A stretch of 41,139 bases of DNA from a virus: positions 1 through 41,139 of the IMG/VR virus record IMGVR_UViG_3300027911_000030, one strand, 5' to 3'. Of this stretch, positions 3,150-37,824 are shown one piece after another (the first letter of the stretch is position 1; each line of letters starts with the position of its first letter). The translations under genes and the position numbers were made by a program. The notes below the pieces were generated by a model, which worked only from the letters and a program-made list of their open reading frames with translations, was not told where the DNA came from and did not search any database.

Positions 3150-3770
3150 CTATGTGTACGTGAATGTGACTTGCCAAGTACCCCCAGCACCGCCAGAGCC
3201 AGTACCTGTCTGACCACCACCACCACCGCCAGGAGTAGACCCAGTACCTGCGGCTCCCGCACTATTTGATGTTGGCGTAACCGATCCGCCATTTGGCGCA
3301 CCAGGAGCGGGCCCGTCAGAAGCTGACGTATCAGTGTTCCCGGCAGTATTGGTATCCCCGCCTGTTGCTGTGCCACCGGCATTGGTGCTTGCCTTGGCTG
3401 GGCCCAAGGTCAGCGTGAAAGAAGGAGATGCGCAAGACACTACAAAATTTGTACTGCCGTCACCGCCCAATCCGTCGCCTCCAGTTCTCCCGGCGCCAGG
3501 AGTCGAGGTCGTGTTGTATGTGAAACTTGTAGTTCCGCCAGTGACAGCGACAGTTTTCTTGGAATAGCCGCCAGAAGGAGCAGCGTTGAAATTCCCTACA
3601 AGGGCATGATCCCTGAAACCACCGGCCCCTACCCCCCACGCCTCAACTACGCACTGCGCAGCCCCAACAGGAGCCGTTTCGCTACCGCTTCCTGGTGTCG
3701 CGCTGTTATACGTGTGCACAGCGCCAGTAAAGCCCAGCGCCCCAAGCAGCATCTGCTGATTGGCACCCAT
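3150..3770 (-). CDS. Glycine-rich tail-tip/adhesin protein
   Basis: 206 residues. The N-terminal part is followed by VVEAWGVGAGGF and GGYSKKTVAVTGG, which resemble the glycine-rich domain found in tail-tip and receptor-binding proteins of many phages. The C-terminal half is low-complexity Gly/Thr/Ala/Pro (GGGGGGQTGTGSGGAGG) and ends in a beta strand (WQVTFTYT). ATG 3770 is preferred because it forms TAATG with the stop of the tail fibre gene; an upstream TTG at 3800 has no better ribosome site. It probably acts with the fibre just upstream. Confidence 0.65.
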   Translation of the reverse strand: MGANQQMLLGALGFTGAVHTYNSATPGSGSETAPVGAAQCVVEAWGVGAGGFRDHALVGNFNAAPSGGYSKKTVAVTGGTTSFTYNTTSTPGAGRTGGDGLGGDGSTNFVVSCASPSFTLTLGPAKASTNAGGTATGGDTNTAGNTDTSASDGPAPGAPNGGSVTPTSNSAGAAGTGSTPGGGGGGQTGTGSGGAGGTWQVTFTYT

Positions 3771-6700
3771 TACGAAAGTCCCGTCCCGGAAATGATCCAA
3801 CTCGTGCTACTAACCTTGCGCGCCGTGGCGACACCATTTTGCGCCAGGGTGCGCGTGCCCGTCGTGGTACTGCCCGCCTTCGTGAGCGTGTCGGTGTTGA
3901 TCGCGATCGACAGATTCGACGAGTTGAGGTTCGTGAACGTGAGGCACGTTCCCGTCGGATACGCCACCGAGCCGTTGGCTGGGATCGTCACCGTCAGGCT
4001 CGTGCCGTTCATGTCGATCGACTTGCCGCTGTCCGCAAGCACGCAGGTGTAGTTAGCGGTTTGCGCTTGTGGGGGAACTTCCAGGAACCCGGCGTTGTAG
4101 AGCGTGGTTCCACTATCCCCAATTTTCGTCGAGTGCGTGCCGGAAACAGAGTTGACAGTAAGAGCGTTGTTGCCGGAAACCGGCGACTGTATAGCGACAT
4201 TGCCCGTAGAATTAACGATACTGATCCGCGTACCGCCGTTAGTATTGATATTGAAACTGTGTGCTGTGTTCGTGCCAACAGAACCTATTCCACCTGTCTG
4301 CGCCTGTAGCGTAACGATGACGCCGCCGTTATTACCCTGCACCGTGTATTGCGCGCTGCCTCCGGCATTGGCATTGTTAAGAATTACCTGCGCGTACCCA
4401 GCAACATTGGAAGCGAACGAAGTGTTGCTGCCCGTCGTATCACTGACCGTAAGTGGGTAGCCACTGCCTGTTGCATTGATCGTGACATTGCCAGAGCCGG
4501 AGATGTTGACTCGGCTCACCGCATTCGTGTAGAGACCAAGCGTCGTGTTCTGCCAAGTCCCAAGGTACATCTGCGTCGAATCGACCCCGAGTTCCCCGTA
4601 TATCGTCAAAGTATCGTTACTACCCCAACGAATCAAACTGGGGTTATTGGTACTCGTCGAACCCCACAAATCCATCAAGTAGTTGTTGGTCGCACCGGCC
4701 CACATGCGCAGGGTCGTGGCGCCAGAGGTGGCGCCGTTGCTACCGGAGCCGTTACCAATTACCAGGGTAGGAGAGCTTCCGCTTCCCGGAGTGTTAATCG
4801 TCCAGTTACCCGCCCCAGTGATATTTCCTTGACTCGCATTCGTGGTGAAGCTGTAGAAGTCGAGCGTGCCCGACGCCACACCACCTTCGCGCAGGTACCA
4901 CTTGTTGACGGAGTTTTCCTGGAACTGGAACCCACTATTCGATGCAGCAGGACTATTGGCAACGAAAGCCGCGAATCCTCCATTCACAATTCCTACAGTC
5001 TGCCCATTCAAAACTGCAGCCAAACCCGACCCAGCGGTAACTGTCAAGGCATTGCCGCTGCTCGGCGCATTGATCGTGACGTTGCCGCTTGGGTTGATCG
5101 TTATCGCACCGAGCCCCGGCGTAGCTCCTCCGTTACCGCCGATCTGCAGGTTGTTCGGCGACGTGGGGGAGCCGCTGTTTGCATTGGCAGTGATCCAGTA
5201 CCGAGTACCGCTGTCTCCTTGGATAGCAAAGGTACCCGCCACACCAGAACCGGTGGCAATTTCGTAGATACCAGCAGCCGCAGCGCTCGAATTGACAGTC
5301 AGCGCGAATCCGCTCGTCGGCGCATTGATCGTGACGTTGCCGGTATTGTTGATCGTCATTCGCGCCGTGGCTGCACCCGCAGCATTGGTAGTGCCAAAGT
5401 TCAATGTCCCGCTGGCCGCTCCCGCGCCATGTGCATTGAACATCGTCCAGATTGCCGCCGCGTCGTTGCCTCCTTGCGCAACGAATGAAATCGTCCCAAA
5501 GTTGCCTACGGTGTTGGACGAGTTCTGGATAAGAATCCGAGAACCGTTGTAATAGCTCGCCGTATCAGTAGACGACGCGATTCCAGAAAACGAAGTCTGC
5601 GCAGCACCGCCCAGCGCATTGACGATCAAGGAGTTGCCGCTCGCGGGGGCGTTAATCGTCATCGCCGGACCCAGCAACGTAAGCATCGTTGCCGTGAGAT
5701 CGAAGCGCTGCGTTCCGCTGATCGTGAAATCGAGGTGGCCCGTTGCCGACTGGTAGAGCCCGGTCGATGGATCAACCGAGAACCCGATCGCCGGGGTGCT
5801 CTGACTGCCCTGGCCGAGAAGCAACGACGTGAGGCCGCTCACCGTCGTGGCGCAATTGATGACGTTCGTGCCATCCGAGAAGAGCACGGCGTTCTGACCG
5901 CTGGGCACCGTGATCTGCGAACCCGCACCACTCTTGAACGTGAGATTGAACGCGCCGGTCGTGGCGTTCTGGACGTAGTACACCTGCACCGTAGGCGGAA
6001 ACACCACAGTCTGGTTGGACCCCAGCACGCCCTGGTACTTCTGAACGACGTTCGCCGCCTGCGTTTGACTGAGCGTGAGCGTACCGCCCGTGACAGTCTG
6101 CACGAGCTCGGTGAAGGCGAACTTCGTGTTGGAGATGTTGCCGAAGCTGTACCACCCGGCGCTTGTTGCGAAGTACGCTGCTGAGTAGCCCGGATTGAGC
6201 GTCTCCGTCGCCGCGCCATCGACGGTATCCGCACCGTTGGGCGTGACGATGAGCGCGCCACTCCCCTTGTTGTTGAGGATGACGAAATACCCAAGCGGCG
6301 TGGGGATGGAACTGAGCGGTGGAAGATTGGCAGCTCCCGTGCCGCCCGTCCACACGTACTGCGCCGCGCGGTCCGTCGTCGCGCTCAAGTTGAGCGGAGA
6401 GGCCGAAGCGATCGAGCTCAAGAAGTTGGGCGAGAGCGTCGCGCCCAGCGCGATCATCCCCGTACCGGCAATCGCCGCAGCGGAGAGCGCACTCGACCCC
6501 GCGCCGAAAAGGAACGCCCCCCACGTCCCGCCAACCGTCGTGTTGTTGGTGAGGTAGACGTAGTACTGCTGCCCGGGCGCGATCGAGGCGATCGTCGTGC
6601 CAGTGTTCGAAAGAAGCGTGAAGGTGAAGGCGCCGTTGTTGTTGATGAGGATGTCAGTACCCAGGCCCTGTGCGTTGGCGGGGGGTAGGGTGATTGAGAG

Positions 6701-6874
6701 ACTGCCCGCGCCCGGCGTGCAGTCCATGATCCTCGTGACGATGGGGGAGCCGCTGGGCGCCTGCGTGGGCCACACGAGCGCCTGACTGACGGCGAAGGCC
6801 AGGGCGGAGTAGCTCGCCTGCGCCGCCGCTACGGGACCGCCGCCGAATACCTGATTGAAGCCGGGACCGGACAT
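3770..6874 (-). CDS. Long tail fibre protein with internal beta repeats
   Basis: 1034 residues, almost wholly Gly/Ser/Thr/Asn/Ala-rich beta sequence with no membrane segment. The N-terminal ~150 residues would be the virion-attachment part. From about residue 405 to 910 a motif of the type GNVTINAPxSGxALTV recurs six times at irregular spacings of 85-107 residues. The C-terminal ~110 residues (ANYTCVLADSGKSIDMNG, then TCLTFTNLN) resemble the C-terminal region seen in many phage fibres. The likely role is receptor binding or a shaft of the host-recognition apparatus. AAGGAA lies upstream of ATG 6874. Its position next to neck proteins and the Gly-rich protein fits a tail gene; the receptor is unknown. 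Confidence 0.75.
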   Translation of the reverse strand: MSGPGFNQVFGGGPVAAAQASYSALAFAVSQALVWPTQAPSGSPIVTRIMDCTPGAGSLSITLPPANAQGLGTDILINNNGAFTFTLLSNTGTTIASIAPGQQYYVYLTNNTTVGGTWGAFLFGAGSSALSAAAIAGTGMIALGATLSPNFLSSIASASPLNLSATTDRAAQYVWTGGTGAANLPPLSSIPTPLGYFVILNNKGSGALIVTPNGADTVDGAATETLNPGYSAAYFATSAGWYSFGNISNTKFAFTELVQTVTGGTLTLSQTQAANVVQKYQGVLGSNQTVVFPPTVQVYYVQNATTGAFNLTFKSGAGSQITVPSGQNAVLFSDGTNVINCATTVSGLTSLLLGQGSQSTPAIGFSVDPSTGLYQSATGHLDFTISGTQRFDLTATMLTLLGPAMTINAPASGNSLIVNALGGAAQTSFSGIASSTDTASYYNGSRILIQNSSNTVGNFGTISFVAQGGNDAAAIWTMFNAHGAGAASGTLNFGTTNAAGAATARMTINNTGNVTINAPTSGFALTVNSSAAAAGIYEIATGSGVAGTFAIQGDSGTRYWITANANSGSPTSPNNLQIGGNGGATPGLGAITINPSGNVTINAPSSGNALTVTAGSGLAAVLNGQTVGIVNGGFAAFVANSPAASNSGFQFQENSVNKWYLREGGVASGTLDFYSFTTNASQGNITGAGNWTINTPGSGSSPTLVIGNGSGSNGATSGATTLRMWAGATNNYLMDLWGSTSTNNPSLIRWGSNDTLTIYGELGVDSTQMYLGTWQNTTLGLYTNAVSRVNISGSGNVTINATGSGYPLTVSDTTGSNTSFASNVAGYAQVILNNANAGGSAQYTVQGNNGGVIVTLQAQTGGIGSVGTNTAHSFNINTNGGTRISIVNSTGNVAIQSPVSGNNALTVNSVSGTHSTKIGDSGTTLYNAGFLEVPPQAQTANYTCVLADSGKSIDMNGTSLTVTIPANGSVAYPTGTCLTFTNLNSSNLSIAINTDTLTKAGSTTTGTRTLAQNGVATARKVSSTSWIISGTGLS
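4170..5670 (-). repeat. Six-copy intragenic repeat in tail fibre gene
   Basis: Six copies of a DNA segment encoding (G)N(V/W)TI(N/Q)xPxSGxxLTV lie near 5647, 5325, 5068, 4790, 4472 and 4182. The copies near 5325 and 5068 share a run of about 25 identical bases, while the others have diverged. Spacing is about 257-322 bp. Such repeats could allow copy-number change by recombination. Confidence 0.75.
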
Positions 6875-8659: not shown

Positions 8660-9931
8660 TTAGCCAGCAAACTGCGTCGCTCCGAAGAGCGTGACGTAGT
8701 TCAGGTTGGTGGCATTGATCGCGTTGTAGGCCGGAATCGACATGAAGACCGCGAGCCGGATCGAGCCGTTGGGCGAAGTCGCGCTCGAAGAGCCCGCGCC
8801 ATTCGCACCAGCCTGCACCGTACCGCGCACGTCGCCCGTGATTGCCGTCGCCGGAGTCGTGGCATCCGCCGCCGTCCAGAGCGGGTTGGTGCTCCCGTTC
8901 GTGGCGAGGAAGGCGCCGTTGTAGTACATCGACATGTACTCGAAGAAGTCCGCACGCAGCGGAATCCCGAACGTGTCACCCGTGCCGAGCGTGATCGTGC
9001 CCGTCGTGGTGCCACCGCCTGCGTGATTGAACTGGATCGTGTTGACGTACTTCCACGCCTTCTTGCCGTACGCCGGAGTCGTGCCGTTGAGCGCGATGGT
9101 CTCGGTCATCGGGACACCGTACACGTCCCAACCCCGTACCGTCACGGTGAACGCCGACGTATCCGAAGCGCTCGACGAAACCACGCGCAGGCACCGCGCA
9201 AGCATCTGCGTCGGATCCCACAGCGCCACCGCCGTTCCTGCCGCGATGAGCGGCCAAGTTCCGGTGGTGGTCGTGTAGTTGGGCTGCCCGACGAGATCCG
9301 GCTCCGCCGCGCCGATCGGTTGGCTGGTGAAGCTGGTGCCGATCGGAGTGGTGATCGAGATCGTCGTTCCGCCGACAACGGGCGCAGCGGCCACCTGCGT
9401 GATGAGGGGGAGCGAACCGCTCGCCCCCGCACCCGCGATCATGATCGCCTGCCCCTTGTGGAAGAACTTGAACGCGCCTGCCGGGATCGTGACCGTGGTC
9501 TGCCCCGCCGTTCCCGTTCCCGTCGTGAAGCCGAAGTCCAGGGTACCGGGCACCGTAACGACGGTGTCCACCGGACCGGGCGGGAAAACGTCGAGCGGGA
9601 GGTTCGTGGAAACCGCGATCGACTGCGTTGCCGCATTGATCGTGCGCGGGGTCGTATTGCCCCCCGCCGGAATCACGAGACCGCCCGCCTGACTGTCGAG
9701 ATTGCCCGCTGCCGAAGCGGAGGGCACGGCGTCGATCAGCGAAATCATCTCGCTGTTGTAGAACCCCGGGACGAGGCGTCCCGGAGCTGCGTCGATCAGC
9801 GCGACGAGCCGCGGATCGATCAGGCCCTGCCCCTGGAAGATCAGGGAAGGGCCCGCGTCGCTGTCCTGGATCTGCGTGGGGTTGGTATTCCCCGCGACGA
9901 TCACCGGACCCGTAACTACGGAACGAGCCAT
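8660..9931 (-). CDS. Probable virion structural protein (head region)
   Basis: 423 residues, beta-rich with Gly/Thr/Ala throughout and no membrane segment. The first 90 residues contain two similar short segments, DPRLVALIDAAPGRLVPGFYN and SEMISLIDAVPSASAA. The rest reads as stacked beta domains (TTVTIPAGAFKFFHKGQAI; RVVSSSASDTSAFTVTVRG). A clean AGGAGG lies 8 nt before ATG 9931. It immediately follows the major capsid gene, so a head-surface, decoration or fibre protein is the likeliest role. I cannot name a family. Confidence 0.6.
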   Translation of the reverse strand: MARSVVTGPVIVAGNTNPTQIQDSDAGPSLIFQGQGLIDPRLVALIDAAPGRLVPGFYNSEMISLIDAVPSASAAGNLDSQAGGLVIPAGGNTTPRTINAATQSIAVSTNLPLDVFPPGPVDTVVTVPGTLDFGFTTGTGTAGQTTVTIPAGAFKFFHKGQAIMIAGAGASGSLPLITQVAAAPVVGGTTISITTPIGTSFTSQPIGAAEPDLVGQPNYTTTTGTWPLIAAGTAVALWDPTQMLARCLRVVSSSASDTSAFTVTVRGWDVYGVPMTETIALNGTTPAYGKKAWKYVNTIQFNHAGGGTTTGTITLGTGDTFGIPLRADFFEYMSMYYNGAFLATNGSTNPLWTAADATTPATAITGDVRGTVQAGANGAGSSSATSPNGSIRLAVFMSIPAYNAINATNLNYVTLFGATQFAG

Positions 9932-12396: not shown

Positions 12397-13488
12397 CTAC
12401 CGTTGCGAACCGGAAGCCCGGTCCATTTCCTGATACCGCTTCACCATGCGAGCACGCTTCACGGGATCGTTCCACATTCCCGCCTGCTGCATGGCCTCGA
12501 CACGCTCCTTGGAGAGCCGGTACGTGCCCTTGGAACCGCTATTGTCGGCGCCCCCACCACCAGAGCCGTTGAACTTGGGAGCTGCGGGCCTGCGCCGCTC
12601 CGCGCCCTGTGCAGCGCGTCCGTTGCGATTGTCCTCCGGCGCATCGTCGCCATCGTCTCGATCATCGTTGTTGCGGTTGCGGTCCATGGCGGCGTATCGG
12701 TGCGGTAGGTACTTCTTCATGCGACGGGTGAGCTCGTCCCAGTACTCGGGCGAAGTGGGATCGCGCCCCGGCTCCTTGGAAAGTCCCTCGTCGATCGCGA
12801 GAGCTACTCGCGAATCGGGGTCCGTAGGACTTGCCGGGTTGTACCACCGATTCTCCGCCATCCACTCGTTGGCGAGCGTCTGGTGGCGTGGATCAAGCGG
12901 TGCCGGGCGCGGTTGGTTCTGCTGATTGAGGTACGCGGTGCGCACATTGGCAAGCTGCTCGGAGCGCTGCGCGGCCTGCGTCATGCGTGCGGAAAAATCC
13001 GCCGCCGCCGTGCCGTCGTTCGCCTTGATGGCCTCGGCCATCTGCTCCTTGAACCAGTTTGCCGCATCCTTGGCTTCCTGGATGTTGCGCTCCAGCTGCT
13101 GCAGCTCTCCTACCGCGCCGCGGCCTTCGAGCGCTGCGAGACGCTGCGTGAGTTCACTGATGACGCGGTTCTGCGAATCCACCGTGACGCGCAGCCTGTC
13201 TTCGCGATCACGCCGGGCGGTACGGCGGCGGCGCTTTTCATCACGCCGGTCCGCGCGCATGCGCTCACGCTCCTCGTCGGTGTACCGGCGACCGGATGCG
13301 TCGTGCGTTGCGACTTCCTCGAACTCGTCCTCGTCGTGCCGGGTGCTGCGCTCCTCGCCTGCGGCAAGGACGTTGCCCTCGCCATCCACATCAACGGAGC
13401 CATCCTCGTTGGTGCGGATCTGCGGAGCCTCCTCTTCCACTGCAGCGCCGGGCGGCGCCGCGTTCTGCTCTTCCTGATTCTCTGCCAT
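12397..13488 (-). CDS. Putative capsid scaffolding protein
   Basis: 363 residues from ATG 13488, preceded by GGGGATGGGGAA; an upstream GTG (13515) is less well placed. Residues 1-60 are very acidic. Next come a charged Arg-rich segment (RADRRDEKRRRRTARRD) and a long predicted coiled coil (VISELTQRLAALEGR, then ELQQLERNIQEAKDAANW). The C-terminal third is Asn/Asp/Gly/Arg-rich and basic at the end. This acidic, coiled-coil, hydrophilic design and its place two genes before the capsid gene fit a scaffold. It is an assignment by context, without a sequence signature. Confidence 0.6.
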   Translation of the reverse strand: MAENQEEQNAAPPGAAVEEEAPQIRTNEDGSVDVDGEGNVLAAGEERSTRHDEDEFEEVATHDASGRRYTDEERERMRADRRDEKRRRRTARRDREDRLRVTVDSQNRVISELTQRLAALEGRGAVGELQQLERNIQEAKDAANWFKEQMAEAIKANDGTAAADFSARMTQAAQRSEQLANVRTAYLNQQNQPRPAPLDPRHQTLANEWMAENRWYNPASPTDPDSRVALAIDEGLSKEPGRDPTSPEYWDELTRRMKKYLPHRYAAMDRNRNNDDRDDGDDAPEDNRNGRAAQGAERRRPAAPKFNGSGGGGADNSGSKGTYRLSKERVEAMQQAGMWNDPVKRARMVKRYQEMDRASGSQR

Positions 13489-13511
13489 TTCCCCATCCCC
13501 TTTCGGAACGT

Positions 13512-14039
13512 TCACAAAATGTAGACCCGCATCTTGAGCGGATCGCCAAGCACCTTGCCGATGATCTCGTGGTCATTGAAGCAGACGAACGTCACGCTTG
13601 CACCGCCATCCGGAGCAGCGACCACGATGCGGTCACCGTTCCAGCGCGGTACCCGCACGAAATCGCCCACCTGTGCCCACATTCCTTCCGGCCAAGGCTC
13701 TCCCGTCTCGCGATGACGAAAGCACAACGGACCCAGTGCAACCACCTTCGCAACCTGCTGGTTCCAACTGATGTCCTGCTGCGTCACACCGGAGAGAATG
13801 ATCCCTCCCCGGCTCTTCATTTGCGGCCTGCGCATCTGCACGAGCAACCGCGTACCAAACGGAACGAAGTTCGGCTCGACATCCGAAGGAAACGCATCCT
13901 CCAGCGTCTGCGGCGCGAGATCCACCGTATCCTGCCCCGGCATCCTCTCGAACCCTTCCGTCTCCCTTTGCGCTGCGATGTGCTGGCCTTCGAGAATCTG
14001 ATCGATGGCCTTCACATCCTCCCTCGACAAAACACCCAT
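13512..14039 (-). CDS. Phage-encoded GroES-like co-chaperonin
   Basis: 175 residues. Residues 59-168 follow the Cpn10 pattern: PFGTRLLVQ (first strand), KSRGGIILSG (compare GroES KSAGGIVLTG, the mobile loop that binds GroEL), QVAKVVALGP, VGDFVRVPRW and a closing ...EIIGKV. The N-terminal ~58 residues are an extra acidic extension absent from bacterial GroES. A perfect AGGAGG lies 5 nt before ATG 14039. The gene directly precedes the scaffold gene. By analogy with T4 gp31, it may cap host GroEL and help fold the capsid protein; the sequence match is direct, the role is inferred. Confidence 0.83.
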   Translation of the reverse strand: MGVLSREDVKAIDQILEGQHIAAQRETEGFERMPGQDTVDLAPQTLEDAFPSDVEPNFVPFGTRLLVQMRRPQMKSRGGIILSGVTQQDISWNQQVAKVVALGPLCFRHRETGEPWPEGMWAQVGDFVRVPRWNGDRIVVAAPDGGASVTFVCFNDHEIIGKVLGDPLKMRVYIL

Positions 14040-14058: not shown

Positions 14059-14340
14059 TTACTTGCGCTTGAGCGTTTCCGCCAAGCGACTCTTCTTCGC
14101 CTTCTTGCTCCCGCCCTTCTTCATGCCACCACCGGCTCCCGGAGGCCCCATCGGAACGGGGCCGGGAGCGCCACCTGCACCACCCGGGCCCATCATCCCG
14201 CCAGGAGCGGGAGCGAGCTGCGCCGCAGAGGGCGGAGGCAGAATCGGCATGGGGCCTGCGCGCGACATACGGGCTTCCGAAGGCAGCAACGCCTTGGCGG
14301 CACCGCGTGATCCAGGGCGACTGCCCTTGGGTGATCCCAT
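14059..14340 (-). CDS. Small Pro/Gly-rich basic-tailed protein
   Basis: 93 residues from ATG 14340, which has GAGGAG upstream and follows the preceding stop by 1 bp. A basic N-terminus is followed by a Pro/Gly/Met/Ala low-complexity centre (GGMMGPGGAGGAPGPVP) and a Lys-rich end (KKGGSKKAKKSRLAETLKRK). It is probably disordered and may bind nucleic acid. The longer frame to 14550 overlaps the next gene out of frame and is not used. It belongs to a cluster of small basic proteins upstream of the co-chaperonin. Confidence 0.6.
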   Translation of the reverse strand: MGSPKGSRPGSRGAAKALLPSEARMSRAGPMPILPPPSAAQLAPAPGGMMGPGGAGGAPGPVPMGPPGAGGGMKKGGSKKAKKSRLAETLKRK

Positions 14341-31008: not shown

Positions 31009-31210
31009 CGACACCGCAGTCCGTGGCTCAGTGCGCTGACCGCACCAACGCAGCGGAAGGTATCACGCGAGCGCCTTGGGGGGAAGGGAGGATGCTGGTG
31101 GTACACGAGGAAAAGTCATGTACCACTCATGTACCAGCGGGTTTTCAGAGGAGAAAAGAAGGTTTGGAATATAGGTACATTGGTACATTACCTTCTAAAA
31201 AGCTATAGAA

Positions 31211-31253
31211 AAGTGTATACATAACATAATGCGTATATTATGGCAAAACACTT
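31211..31253. repeat. Central AT-rich dyad of the array
   Basis: Nested inverted repeats: AAGTGT (31211-31216) with ACACTT (31248-31253), and CATAAT (31225-31230) with ATTATG (31237-31242). The centre is near 31232-31233, the same as the centre of symmetry of the ten hexamers. Low melting stability would suit strand opening. Confidence 0.7.
31218..31246 (-). promoter_or_regulatory. Possible leftward promoter in the dyad
   Basis: Minus strand: TTGCCA (31246-31241), 17-nt spacer, TATGTA (31223-31218). It has a good -35 and a poor -10 match. It would drive the packaging/virion block and lies between the two inner pairs of GGTACA sites, so it would be covered by a bound protein. Confidence 0.3.
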
Positions 31254-31367
31254 ATATAAAAGAGTTTTGGCGAAAAGTAATGTACCGCATGTACCAGTGT
31301 GCAAGCACTGATTCAAAACGACTTTTTTGGTACATCACTTTGGTACATCACATGTACCACCCCGAAT

Positions 31368-31441: not shown

Positions 31442-31831
31442 ATGGACACCTCTTCCTTCCTCACGCACAAGCTCCACTTCCGCATTGCCCAGGACGACGA
31501 TCTCCTGCACGAGTTCGAGCGCTTGGCCGCGATCGAGCTTCCCGAGCTCCTCGCCGCCAAGGAGGCGCAGCACTTCAACCGTCCTCGCTACACCGCCGCG
31601 AGCGCATGGCGCTGGTTCAACGAGCACTGCACCCAGGACCAGCGCCGTCGCTACCGCACGATCACGACCGCCAGGGGCAAGAAAGCCGGGGACCTTTACG
31701 TGAAGGACGTGTGGGAGAAAGCCTTCCCACAGCGCCCGCCTGTGCGTCCCACAGGGCTCCTCACCAACCAGCAGGTGCAGGCGATCGCCTACGCCCGCGC
31801 TCTTCGAAAGCTCCTTGACAAGAACCAGTGA
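31442..31831 (+). CDS. First protein of rightward block, unknown
   Basis: 129 residues, mixed alpha with many charged and aromatic residues (ISCTSS frame excluded). Visible pieces: FRIAQDDDLLHEFERLAAIE, AASAWRWFNEHCTQDQRRRY, TGLLTNQQVQAIAYARALRK. No membrane segment and no HTH I can name. The start ATG lacks a clear ribosome site. As the first gene after the operator array it is a candidate regulator or replication accessory protein; this is by position only. Confidence 0.65.
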   Translation: MDTSSFLTHKLHFRIAQDDDLLHEFERLAAIELPELLAAKEAQHFNRPRYTAASAWRWFNEHCTQDQRRRYRTITTARGKKAGDLYVKDVWEKAFPQRPPVRPTGLLTNQQVQAIAYARALRKLLDKNQ

Positions 31832-34019: not shown

Positions 34020-34265
34020 ATGGGCATCCGCGGCGATTGGGCAGGGATCATCGCAACGCACTTCGAGTGCAGCTACACCGACCCGCGCGTGTGGCTCGCC
34101 TACGATGCGATCGTCGAATCGCTCACGAGCGGGGATTTCGTGCGCGCGATCGAGGCGCGCTGCCCCGAGAAGATGGGGCCTGCCTTCGTGCTATGGGAGC
34201 TGCAGCAGCTTCTGAAAACGGATCGCTCAAAAATTAGGCAGCCCAGGGAAATTTGGGGGTGTTGA
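34020..34265 (+). CDS. Small protein after primase-helicase, unknown
   Basis: 81 residues, helical with conserved-looking aromatic residues (YTDPRVWLAYDAIVESL; AFVLWELQQLLKTDRSK). AGGAGAACGAG stands before ATG 34020. Its TGA stop (34263-34265) lies within the -35 box TTGACA of promoter P2. The function is unknown. Confidence 0.62.
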   Translation: MGIRGDWAGIIATHFECSYTDPRVWLAYDAIVESLTSGDFVRAIEARCPEKMGPAFVLWELQQLLKTDRSKIRQPREIWGC

Positions 34266-34305
34266 CATACCGGATAGATAAGTCTACTGTTCGGCTTGTA
34301 CCACC
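34262..34305 (+). promoter_or_regulatory. Promoter P2 with TGTACCACC operator
   Basis: TTGACA (34262-34267), 17-nt spacer, TACTGT (34285-34290), then 6 nt, then TGTACCACC (34297-34305), which covers the expected start site. The -10 region TAAGTCTACTGTTCG is identical to that of P3. The 9-mer equals the outermost site of the array at 31353. Likely a repressible promoter for 34327 onward. Confidence 0.7.
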
Positions 34306-34326
34306 CCTCTCTCCTGGAGATTGACC

Positions 34327-35103
34327 ATGCAAGCTGCAACCCATAGCGGTACCTGCCAGATTTGCGGCAGCCTTCAAAAGCTCCCCCGCGGCGTGCTCGC
34401 CAAGCACGGCTACACGACGAAGTGGGGCTTCTTCTCCGGCGTGTGCACCGGCTCCGACTACAAGCCCTTCGAGGAAAGCAAGGGGCTCATCGATGCGGCG
34501 ATCGATGACGCCCTGGGGCGCATGCGCCTCGTCGAAGCGGCGATCCGTGACCTGGAGCGCACCCCCACGCAGCCCAAGGCGTGGAAGGAGGTGTACGTCC
34601 AGAAAGCGCATCCCAGGGCGCGCGGCGGCTGGAGCCCCGGCTACGTTTGGGTCCTCGGCACCATCGAGACCGAGCACGTCACGGGGCAAAGCGGCTACGA
34701 ATACGATCGCTTCTGGCTCGTCGTGGAAGGCCCGCACGCAGGGCGCTACAAGATCGAAACGCACGGCCATCACGAAGACGCCATCGAGCTTGCGCGCAAG
34801 CTCAACGTGGTGCGCGCGGAGCGGGTCGAGCGCGTGACGCTCAAGCAGCTCACCGAGTACGTGACGTGGCAGCGGGGCCGCATCGCCGCCTGGAAGCCGC
34901 ATCCCGAGCAGCTCGTGCCGGTCCCCGCCAGTGCTGGGCCGCTCGTGCACTGGCGCGTCAAGGACTGGGGTAAGGCGTGCGCCGCCTCCCGCCGCGCTGC
35001 GGACACGGGCCGTGTGACGGATCAACCCGCCCAGGTCACTTGCAGCCGCTGCAAGCTCTCCCACAGTTTCACCCGCGCGATTGCCGCGCAACCTTCCCTC
35101 TAG
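34327..35103 (+). CDS. Zinc-finger-containing early protein, unknown
   Basis: 258 residues from ATG 34327, with CTGGAG upstream (a TTG six bases earlier is less likely). The N-terminus has CQIC followed by a conserved-looking LPRGVLAKHGYTTKWGFFSG and a later Cys. The C-terminus has CSRCKLSHSF. The middle is mixed (GYVWVLGTIETEHVTGQ; DAIELARKLNVVRAERVER). Proteins with this N-terminal zinc motif are widespread in phages and plasmids, without a settled function. It is the first gene of the P2 transcript. Confidence 0.65.
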   Translation: MQAATHSGTCQICGSLQKLPRGVLAKHGYTTKWGFFSGVCTGSDYKPFEESKGLIDAAIDDALGRMRLVEAAIRDLERTPTQPKAWKEVYVQKAHPRARGGWSPGYVWVLGTIETEHVTGQSGYEYDRFWLVVEGPHAGRYKIETHGHHEDAIELARKLNVVRAERVERVTLKQLTEYVTWQRGRIAAWKPHPEQLVPVPASAGPLVHWRVKDWGKACAASRRAADTGRVTDQPAQVTCSRCKLSHSFTRAIAAQPSL

Positions 35104-35113
35104 GAGCACTGCC

Positions 35114-35407
35114 ATGGCAATTCTTACCGCAAAAGAGCTCAAGGAGCACGTCGACAAGGGCACACGCATGGTCGGCCCGCGCGCCGCATCCTTTCTTCGC
35201 AAGGAGGGCGAGGAGTACGTCATGTACGGACTCACCGGGGTCAACCGCCTCACGATCTGCGTGACGGACGCCGAGCGCCTCCTGGCGCACTGGGAGGGAT
35301 TTCAGTTCAAGAACGCTGTGCGGTACATGGAGCGTGTCTTTGATTGCGAGTTCGAGCTTATGTCCCAGGCTCGCGAGCACGAAGTCCACGACATCGTGGA
35401 GCGCTGA
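35114..35407 (+). CDS. Small early protein, unknown
   Basis: 97 residues from ATG 35114, preceded by TAGGAGCACTGCC. Compact alpha/beta look (KELKEHVDKGTRMVG; NRLTICVTDAERLLAHWEG; AVRYMERVFDCEFEL). No motif recognised. It lies 10 bp after the zinc-finger gene and 2 bp before the next GTG start, so it is part of the same operon. Confidence 0.65.
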   Translation: MAILTAKELKEHVDKGTRMVGPRAASFLRKEGEEYVMYGLTGVNRLTICVTDAERLLAHWEGFQFKNAVRYMERVFDCEFELMSQAREHEVHDIVER

Positions 35408-35409
35408 TC

Positions 35410-35721
35410 GTGGCCTACGTCATCCGCAAGGCGAACGACCATACCCTCTTCTACAAGCGGCGCCACGGCGCCTTCACGGGGCACTGGGACGTGCAGTCCA
35501 ACGCCGAGGTGTGGAAGACGCTGCGCGCGGCGCAGGCGAAGGCCCGCGAGCTTCGCTCCTACAAGTACAACGTGCAGATTGTGGAGTGCATCGAGGGGTT
35601 TCGCTATGAAAGCGATCTCCTTCGGGAGCGGCGCGTGCTCACGGCGCGCCTCGCCGAGATCGATGCGCTCCTCACGGGCACGCCCCGGGAGACGGACAAT
35701 GCGGTGGTGGAGGAGGTGTGA
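35410..35721 (+). CDS. Small early protein, unknown
   Basis: 103 residues from GTG 35410 with GGAG 8 nt upstream; the frame to the left overlaps the preceding gene. The N-terminus (AYVIRKANDHTLFYKRRHG) is beta-rich and basic. The rest is helical and charged (RVLTARLAEIDALLTG). It overlaps the next start by 4 bp (GTGA). Not recognised. Confidence 0.62.
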   Translation: MAYVIRKANDHTLFYKRRHGAFTGHWDVQSNAEVWKTLRAAQAKARELRSYKYNVQIVECIEGFRYESDLLRERRVLTARLAEIDALLTGTPRETDNAVVEEV

Positions 35722-35978
35722 TCTTCTACTACGTGAACTGCAACGAGCCCAAGTACTTCCCGACCCTGCACGCCGCCGCCAAGCACCTCAAGGCGAGGGT
35801 CGCTGGGAACCCCACGGAGGCGCGCTGGGCCGAGATTGAGGAGCTGGAGATAGGGAGCGATCGCAAGACGCTCCTTGCCATCCTCAACGATTCTGGAGGC
35901 TTCGTGAAGGTCACGCGCGGGCGCTGGAGCATTGGCCCCCAGGGTGGAGTCATCAAGGGAGCGGCGCCGGGATTATGA
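35718..35978 (+). CDS. Small early protein, unknown
   Basis: 86 residues from GTG 35718 with GGAG upstream, overlapping the preceding stop. IFYYVNCNEPKYFPTLHAA, a helix AKHLKARVAGN, and a basic Gly-rich end (KVTRGRWSIGPQGGVIKG). It could be a small DNA-binding or regulatory protein by charge. Promoter P3 begins 33 bp after its stop. Confidence 0.62.
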   Translation: MIFYYVNCNEPKYFPTLHAAAKHLKARVAGNPTEARWAEIEELEIGSDRKTLLAILNDSGGFVKVTRGRWSIGPQGGVIKGAAPGL

Positions 35979-36011
35979 CAAACTGCCTAAAAATGAGGCA
36001 AAAGAAAGTTG

Positions 36012-36055
36012 TTGACATAGGCGGCAGGTAAGTCTACTGTTCGTCCTGTACCACC
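36012..36055 (+). promoter_or_regulatory. Promoter P3 with TGTACCACC operator
   Basis: TTGACA (36012-36017), 17-nt spacer, TACTGT (36035-36040), 6 nt, TGTACCACC (36047-36055). It has exactly the layout of P2, with the same TAAGTCTACTGTTCG core, although the spacers differ in sequence. It drives 36074 and the UvrD-like helicase. Confidence 0.7.
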
Positions 36056-36073: not shown

Positions 36074-36364
36074 ATGTCCCAAACGCACCGCATCAACCGC
36101 AACAACACCACCGTCACGACGCTGCCCGACGGCACACGCGTCGTCGTCCTCCACAAGACCCCCGTCGTTACCGCGCATGCGGACGGTCGCGTGACTTTTT
36201 GCACCGGCGGCTGGTTCACCGCCACGACCCGCACGCGCATCAACCAAGTGTGCAGCGAGTGGGGCATCCCCTGGCGCGTGGGGTTCACCAAGGCAGCCAA
36301 CGCCGCCCGCAACTACGTGACCGGCGAAGTGCGCGAGTTCGTCGGCGACTCCCTCACCGTCTAG
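36074..36364 (+). CDS. Small phage protein, unknown (conserved)
   Basis: 96 residues from ATG 36074, with TTGGAG 8 nt upstream. Contains RVTFCTGGWFTATTRTRIN and a C-terminal helix (TKAANAARNYVTGE). The GGWFTATT-TR-N motif belongs to a conserved early-gene protein found in many phages and plasmids without known function. It is the first gene of the P3 transcript and ends 8 bp before the helicase start. Confidence 0.65.
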   Translation: MSQTHRINRNNTTVTTLPDGTRVVVLHKTPVVTAHADGRVTFCTGGWFTATTRTRINQVCSEWGIPWRVGFTKAANAARNYVTGEVREFVGDSLTV

Positions 36365-36372
36365 GAGCCGCC

Positions 36373-37824
36373 ATGCAACCCTCCACCTACCAGCAGGCCA
36401 TCTTCGACTTCGTCGCCACGGGGCACGGCAACGCGATCATCAACGCCGTTGCGGGCTCCGGCAAGACGACGACCGTCGTCGAGGCGCTCAAGCTCACGCA
36501 GGGCGATGCGGTCTTCCTCGCCTTCAACAAGGCGATTGCGGAGGAGCTCAAGGCCCGCGTTCCCTCGCACGTCCAGGCGCGCACGTTCCATTCCCTGTGC
36601 TACGGCCCCGTCACGCGGGCGCTGGGCGTGCGCGAAGTCAACACGAACAAGCTGCGCAACCTCGTCGAACTGACCTTCGAGGACGAGGAGCGGCGGCTCT
36701 ACGGCGCCTTTGCGTGCAAGCTCGTGGGGCTCGCGCGCCAGGAAGGTGTGCACGCCCTCGTGCCCGACACCGAAGGCGTGTGGGCCGACATCGTCGCCAA
36801 GCACAACATCGAGCTTGATTCCGACGATGCCACGATCGCACGCGGCATCGAGCTCGCGCGCAAGCTCCTCGAAATGAGCAATGGCATGCTCGACATGGAC
36901 TTCGACGACATGCTCTACTTCGCGGTCCTGAAGGGCATCAAGCTCCCTACGTTCGACTGGGTGTTCGTCGACGAGGCGCAGGACACGAACGCGATCCAGC
37001 GCGCGATCCTTCGCAAGATCCTGCGCCCGCGCGCGCGGCTCGTCGCGGTGGGCGATCCCGCCCAGGCGATCTACGGGTTCCGCGGTGCCGATGGCAACTC
37101 GCTGCAGCTCATCCGCGAGGAGTTCAAGGCGGCGGAGCTCCCGCTCTCCGTCTCCTACCGCTGCGCCAAGTCGATCGTCGATCACGCGCGCCAGTACGTG
37201 CCGATCATCCAGGCGCACGAGCATGCGGTTGACGGAGTCGTGCGCAGCATGGGCGAGGAGTGGAACCACGGCATCTTCAGCGCCGATGACCTTGTCGTGT
37301 GCCGCAACACGAAGCCCCTCGTGGCGCTCGCCTACAGCCTGCTGCGTGAGCGCATCCCCTGCCACATCATGGGCCGGGACATTGGGGAAGGTCTCAAGGC
37401 CCTCGTGCGGCGCATGAAGGCGCGCGATATCGATGCCCTGCAGCTGCGCCTGGAAGCCTACAAGACCCGGGAGATGGAGAAGGCCATTGCCAAGGGCGAG
37501 GAGGCCCTGGCAGCCGCGATCGAGGACAAGGTGGACTCCCTGCTCGTCGTCGTGGGCGGATTGCCTGAGAACGCGCGTACGGTCGCCGAGCTCCTGCGCG
37601 TGCTCGACGAGATGTTCTCCGACGCCGGGCGGCGCAACCTCACGCTCGCCACGATCCACAAGAGCAAGGGGCTTGAGGCGGATCACGTGTTCTGGCTCAA
37701 CCCCTCGGTGTGCCCCAGCAAGTGGGCGAAGCAGCCCTGGCAGCAGGAGCAGGAGCGCAACCTCATGTACGTTGCGATCACGCGCGCCAAGAGCAAGCTC
37801 ACGAAGATCGAACTACCCAGGTGA
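36373..37824 (+). CDS. UvrD/Rep-like superfamily 1 DNA helicase
   Basis: 483 residues from ATG 36373 with TAGGAG upstream. SF1A motifs in order: QQAIFDF (Q motif), AVAGSGKTTT (Walker A, 26-34), VFVDEAQDTN (motif II, ~199-207), VAVGDPAQAIYGFRGA (motif III), LSVSYRC (motif IV), TIHKSKGLEADHVF (motif V) and NLMYVAITRAKSKL (motif VI). All motifs are present, and the length is short compared with bacterial UvrD (~720), as in phage helicases. It would unwind DNA in replication or recombination. Confidence 0.93.
   Translation: MQPSTYQQAIFDFVATGHGNAIINAVAGSGKTTTVVEALKLTQGDAVFLAFNKAIAEELKARVPSHVQARTFHSLCYGPVTRALGVREVNTNKLRNLVELTFEDEERRLYGAFACKLVGLARQEGVHALVPDTEGVWADIVAKHNIELDSDDATIARGIELARKLLEMSNGMLDMDFDDMLYFAVLKGIKLPTFDWVFVDEAQDTNAIQRAILRKILRPRARLVAVGDPAQAIYGFRGADGNSLQLIREEFKAAELPLSVSYRCAKSIVDHARQYVPIIQAHEHAVDGVVRSMGEEWNHGIFSADDLVVCRNTKPLVALAYSLLRERIPCHIMGRDIGEGLKALVRRMKARDIDALQLRLEAYKTREMEKAIAKGEEALAAAIEDKVDSLLVVVGGLPENARTVAELLRVLDEMFSDAGRRNLTLATIHKSKGLEADHVFWLNPSVCPSKWAKQPWQQEQERNLMYVAITRAKSKLTKIELPR

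Follow-up and report, generated by a model that had tools for sequence, protein, structure and literature searches.

A putative iteron origin and a duplicated pair of sigma-70-type promoters carry the same nine-nucleotide word in a tailed phage genome

Two near-identical promoter-like stretches in the early region of the genome of an uncultured tailed phage, P2 and P3, carry the 9-mer TGTACCACC where their transcripts would start, and the same word stands at both outer ends of an array of TGTACC sites at 31.1–31.36 kb. Does one protein act at the array and at both promoters, or do two separate elements happen to share a word? We addressed this in the whole 41,139-nucleotide (nt) stretch of the IMG/VR record IMGVR_UViG_3300027911_000030, here called the window. 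An earlier note on it had proposed a regulon of one protein, probably a repressor that covers the start sites. We find that duplicated early promoters plus a separate iteron origin are the best and the simpler explanation, and on balance probably the right one.

P2 and P3 are two copies of one 53-nt repeat with an identity of 83%. They stand where the earlier note had placed them, each with TTGACA, a 17-nt spacer and the 9-mer six nt past the −10. TTGACA with a spacer of 16–18 nt is expected of a sigma-70 promoter. Six of the nine mismatches fall inside 9 nt of the spacer (permutation p = 0.007). Hence the shared blocks look constrained, in agreement with the earlier note. Judging from the two copies, selection seems to have kept the −35 block, the 15-mer that spans the −10 and, further on, TGTACCACCYCTCTCT. 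TAAGTCTACTGTTCG is confined to P2 and P3 within the window.

P2 lies just past the primase operon, and its −35 overlaps the stop codon (34263–34265, inside TTGACA) of an open reading frame (ORF) of 81 amino acids (aa). An alignment-based search for the primase-helicase found a near-identical contig and 79 other loci with distant relatives, ~24–33% identical to that of the window. The loci L040, L048, L069, L073, L079 and L039/L043 have duplicated sigma-70-type early promoters in which the segment following the −10 is conserved. The first copy is at most ~50 nt from the end of the primase gene in L048, L069, L073 and L079, and the placement of P2 resembles theirs, with the one 81-aa ORF between primase and P2.

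The words after the −10 vary by lineage, being ACGATCGANTNACGATCGG in L040, CTAAYCACGGTCAAC-like in L048 and L073, and TCATCAACAACCAACCTGCTGAGGA in L079, and the words of these duplicated promoters are mostly unrelated to the arrays of the same loci. The L069 promoter reads TTTACA-17-TATYGT and has a third copy at the right edge of the L069 array. The sole near-identical public contig, IMGVR_UViG_3300006162_000030, was set aside as a close relative for judging the conservation of P2 and P3, because it is 100% identical where compared and gives no independent variation. In other phages, a relaxed pattern of the promoter matched only sites without the TGTACCACC context.

A 12-mer, AAAAATKAGGCA, stands upstream of both promoters, at P3 10 nt nearer the −35 than at P2 (p ~0.03). 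A perfect inverted repeat, GCCTAAAAATGAGGC, precedes P3 (35985–35999) and a degraded copy, GCTCAAAAATTAGGC, precedes P2 (34225–34239). Their distances to the −35 differ by about one helical turn, and they are a possible activator site. Among the proteins tested, there was no phage RNA polymerase to explain long conserved promoters.

The ten sites of the array flank an AT-rich centre with the orientations − + + − − on the left and + + − − + on the right, at spacings of 19, 11, 44, 8, 99, 9, 39, 13 and 11. It sits at the junction of the divergent late (−) and early (+) blocks, and the primase-helicase gene starts ~520 nt downstream of its end. The outer sites of the array show no resemblance to a P2-like promoter.

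Among the relatives, almost all loci with enough upstream sequence have an AT-rich peak ~400–1250 nt upstream of the primase match, a few having it farther away, and terL, where detected, is on the opposite strand. Exact 7-mers were significantly repeated in 18 of 46 distinct peaks and in none of 46 control windows; some of the relatives' arrays are too degenerate to be tested with exact words. The repeat word varies by lineage, including TGTAGCG, TGTAACAG, TGTAATAGC, ATGTGAACC, CTGGATCAC, TATCCGAAT and others. Where the site geometry is clear, it recurs with different words as doublets 8–13 nt apart opposite a facing doublet. The window, L082 and L033 show most clearly the whole pattern with both sides.

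From this anatomy and conservation, we infer that the array is most likely an iteron replication origin, conserved across the loci with this type of primase-helicase. The reading as nothing but an operator cluster was considered and dropped, given the family-wide conservation beside primase-helicases.

The origins of phage-inducible chromosomal islands (PICIs) are reported to have two iteron sets, one on either side of an AT-rich region (PMC6092414), and the Rep of Staphylococcus aureus pathogenicity islands (SaPIs) is reported to recognise its own iterons via its C-terminus (PMC7581432). The window resembles these systems with their Rep or PriRep (structures 7ola, 7pds and 7om0) in that the iteron word differs among lineages and a candidate initiator helicase of the superfamily 3 (SF3)/PriRep type is encoded beside the putative origin. 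However, the SaPI and PICI origins lie immediately 3′ of rep, whereas the array is found at a divergent junction, 5′ of the primase gene. Unlike the islands, the window and its relatives belong to tailed phages that encode structural proteins of their own, and binding and replication here are putative.

The 708-aa primase-helicase is the candidate for the origin-binding initiator. Its structure model matches the NrS-1 primase and SaPI5 PriRep1 (Rep). The best match of its helicase half in both sequence and fold is the C-terminal helicase of the NrS-1 primase-polymerase (6k9c, 6lrb). The N-terminal halves differ: that of the window protein has DUF3854, and that of NrS-1 is an archaeo-eukaryotic Prim/Pol (PMC7102993, PMC8718748).

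Homologous primases (~29%) are found in Pseudoxanthomonas phage PW916 and Stenotrophomonas phage AXL_3, where the repeat word differs from that of the window. PW916 is like the window in the divergent terminase/primase layout and the inverted repeats around an AT-rich junction; no promoter pair like P2 and P3 was found in it.

The TGTACC word itself is used more widely. Apart from the near-identical contig, 21 further stretches matched a DNA pattern with the geometry of the TGTACC sites, against a rough chance estimate of 2–3. The inspected arrays usually adjoin a primase/helicase with one of three unrelated cores, Toprim + AAA_25, PrimPol + VapE or DUF3987, which suggests that a single origin word is either used in common or was arrived at by convergence. 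In L101, L103 and L116, the sites are within or beside another gene and are perhaps chance matches. TGTACC iteron arrays with similar geometry and unrelated primase/helicase cores were noted in L097, L098, L099, L104, L106, L107, L108, L110 and L111.

In the explanation that we prefer, P2 and P3 would be two copies of a sigma-70-type early promoter, both read by the host RNA polymerase. P2 would restart transcription right after the primase-helicase operon and P3 would do so again 1.75 kb on, while selection would keep the −35, the −10 and the initially transcribed segment alike in both. The array would be a separate element, an origin laid out as in SaPIs and PICIs, where an AT-rich stretch lies between two sets of iterons. 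The C-terminal domain of the adjacent primase-helicase would most likely bind it and then open the AT-rich centre. The TGTACC common to the array and the promoters would be a coincidence, or a weak secondary site at most.

Four observations weigh against this explanation. Fewer than half of the AT-rich peaks in relatives passed the exact 7-mer test. The −10 of P2 and P3, TACTGT, agrees with TATAAT at three of six positions (T1, A2 and T6) and a generic promoter scan calls neither site; because the −10 is weak, an activator or other factor may be required. The exact 9-mer takes the same position in the two promoters and also stands at either edge of the array, with a nominal p of 0.002–0.04. 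In L039, the two early promoters share a 13-mer, CTTTTGCACTTTG, with the sequence that flanks the array on its left (p = 0.017).

A narrower form of the explanation is that TGTACCACCYCTCTCT is kept as an initially transcribed segment or leader, serving promoter escape or the mRNA 5′ end, and that no protein acts both there and at the array. This is quite possible, if short of probable. It agrees with the relatives, whose duplicated promoters also conserve the segment after the −10 in lineage-specific words, but no significant RNA fold common to the two leaders compared was found, and the match to the array edges is left unexplained.

That match was spotted post hoc. TGTACCACC has six copies in the window, at 31097(−), 31353(+), 34297(+), 36047(+), 6148 and 12840, while dinucleotide shuffles give 0.13 expected. 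The first two are the outer ends of the array, confirming what the earlier note had said of them. It had also mentioned the copy near 12841 in a coding region and missed the second late-gene copy, at 6148. Among the other 53-nt stretches of the genome, the frequency is 0.0022 for TGTACCACC, 0.012 for TGTACC and 0.028 for any array 9-mer, and 0.46% of them have an array 9-mer containing the core. In a matched test, ~4% of other 600-nt windows have a 9-mer in common with both promoters (p = 0.04).

These figures bear on the rival of a single phage protein, either the primase-helicase or the 129-aa product, that binds TGTACCACC at the array edges and the P2 and P3 starts and represses early transcription once accumulated. 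We regard it as unlikely. It would account for the exact word at an identical place in two promoters with diverged spacers and at both outer array sites, and the matched test leans to it. However, the base 5′ of TGTACC is A in nine of the ten array sites, T in P2 and C in P3. Over 114 sites in 13 arrays, chosen with a partial bias towards A, this base is A in 90, T in 15, G in 8 and C in 1.

By a weight matrix built from the ten array sites, P3 ranks 16th and P2 32nd genome-wide, under some coding sites. In the 10 kb following each of 18 arrays, the array 8-mer was observed 6 times and expected 5.1 times, so the early regions are not enriched. P2 and P3 also have one site each, whereas doublets are typical in the array. 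Of the earlier proposal, the twin promoter-like elements and the 9-mer that they share with the array edges hold. An iteron origin is the better reading of the array; the operator cluster and the repressor over the start sites find no favour in the unenriched early regions and the poor matrix ranks.

A comparable sharing is seen in L039, where the 13-mer lies at 8842–8854, about 13219–13231 and 14108–14120, and a ribbon-helix-helix (RHH)-like ORF is beside the array (9305–9706). By the same test, the promoters and the array share 9 nt in L048 (p = 0.07) and L069 (p = 0.15), and nothing notable in L040, L043, L073 and L079. The words shared in L048 and L069 are core promoter elements (−10 and −35), as would fit promoters placed at the edges of the arrays.

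Temperate phages have dispersed repressor sites, as exemplified by the stoperators of mycobacteriophage L5. The likeness is in short sites oriented with transcription, but the window has just two promoter copies and no repressor gene was recognised: the early proteins tested gave no helix-turn-helix (HTH) or RHH family match, several early ORFs being of unknown family. The 129-aa ORF yielded a helical model of low confidence without any structural match. Its profile comparisons reached a probability of only 2% with the RHH-like proteins in the same slot of relatives and 0.3% with the other small family there. This slot between origin and primase holds assorted small proteins in the relatives, several of them RHH- or HTH-like (L022 2671–3048, L045 6306–6581 and L079 9382–9909), and the 129-aa ORF occupies it without detectable similarity to them.

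The last rival, that the array is a transcriptional control region of operators flanking divergent promoters rather than an origin, fits its position exactly at the late (−)/early (+) divergence and the early promoter copy at the right edge of the L069 array, but is quite improbable as the mirrored iteron layout around an AT-rich core is conserved beside primase-helicases, non-homologous ones included.

The positions of all features are collected in Table 1. The genome is a mosaic, with a UvrD-like helicase near those of Pseudomonas phages and most other tested proteins lacking close relatives.

Table 1. Features discussed in the text, in window coordinates.
Feature	Positions	Strand	Description
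TGTACCACC in a late gene	6148–6156	+	Gene at 3770–6874, - strand; probably incidental
TGTACCACC in a late gene	12840–12848	+	Gene at 12397–13515, - strand; probably incidental
Array of ten TGTACC sites	31097–31361		Two mirror-image halves of five sites; putative iteron replication origin
AT-rich array centre	31190–31275		Putative unwinding region
129-aa ORF	31442–31831	+	Between array and primase; no function assigned
Primase-helicase, 708 aa	31884–34010	+	DUF3854 + SF3-type DUF5906/VapE helicase, winged-helix-like C-terminus
81-aa ORF	34020–34265	+	Ends in P2; no function assigned
AAAAATTAGGCA	34229–34240	+	Upstream of P2, common to P3
P2	34262–34290	+	Putative sigma-70-type early promoter; TTGACA 34262–34267, 17 nt, TACTGT 34285–34290
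TGTACCACC at P2	34297–34305	+	Presumed transcript start, six nt after −10
258-aa early protein	34327–35103	+	Downstream of P2; phrog_17208, no function assigned
AAAAATGAGGCA	35989–36000	+	Upstream of P3, within perfect inverted repeat GCCT-N7-AGGC 35985–35999
P3	36012–36040	+	Putative second early promoter copy; TTGACA 36012–36017, 17 nt, TACTGT 36035–36040
TGTACCACC at P3	36047–36055	+	Presumed transcript start, six nt after −10
96-aa early protein	36074–36364	+	Downstream of P3; Kyano_Gp96/phrog_554 family, no function assigned
UvrD-like helicase	36373–37824	+	~55% identical to Pseudomonas phages JG054, PaMx25 and NP1

In summary, the P2 and P3 promoters themselves appear ordinary. It is rather unlikely that the starts of the duplicated promoters are also bound by the protein that binds the origin in this phage group, or by a small regulator whose gene adjoins that origin. 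If they are, one iteron-type site, with its word changing with the lineage, would control both replication initiation and early transcription. The iteron words switch among lineages and TGTACC accompanies helicases of three unrelated types; therefore, origin mapping and specificity tests should be straightforward for many uncultured phages.
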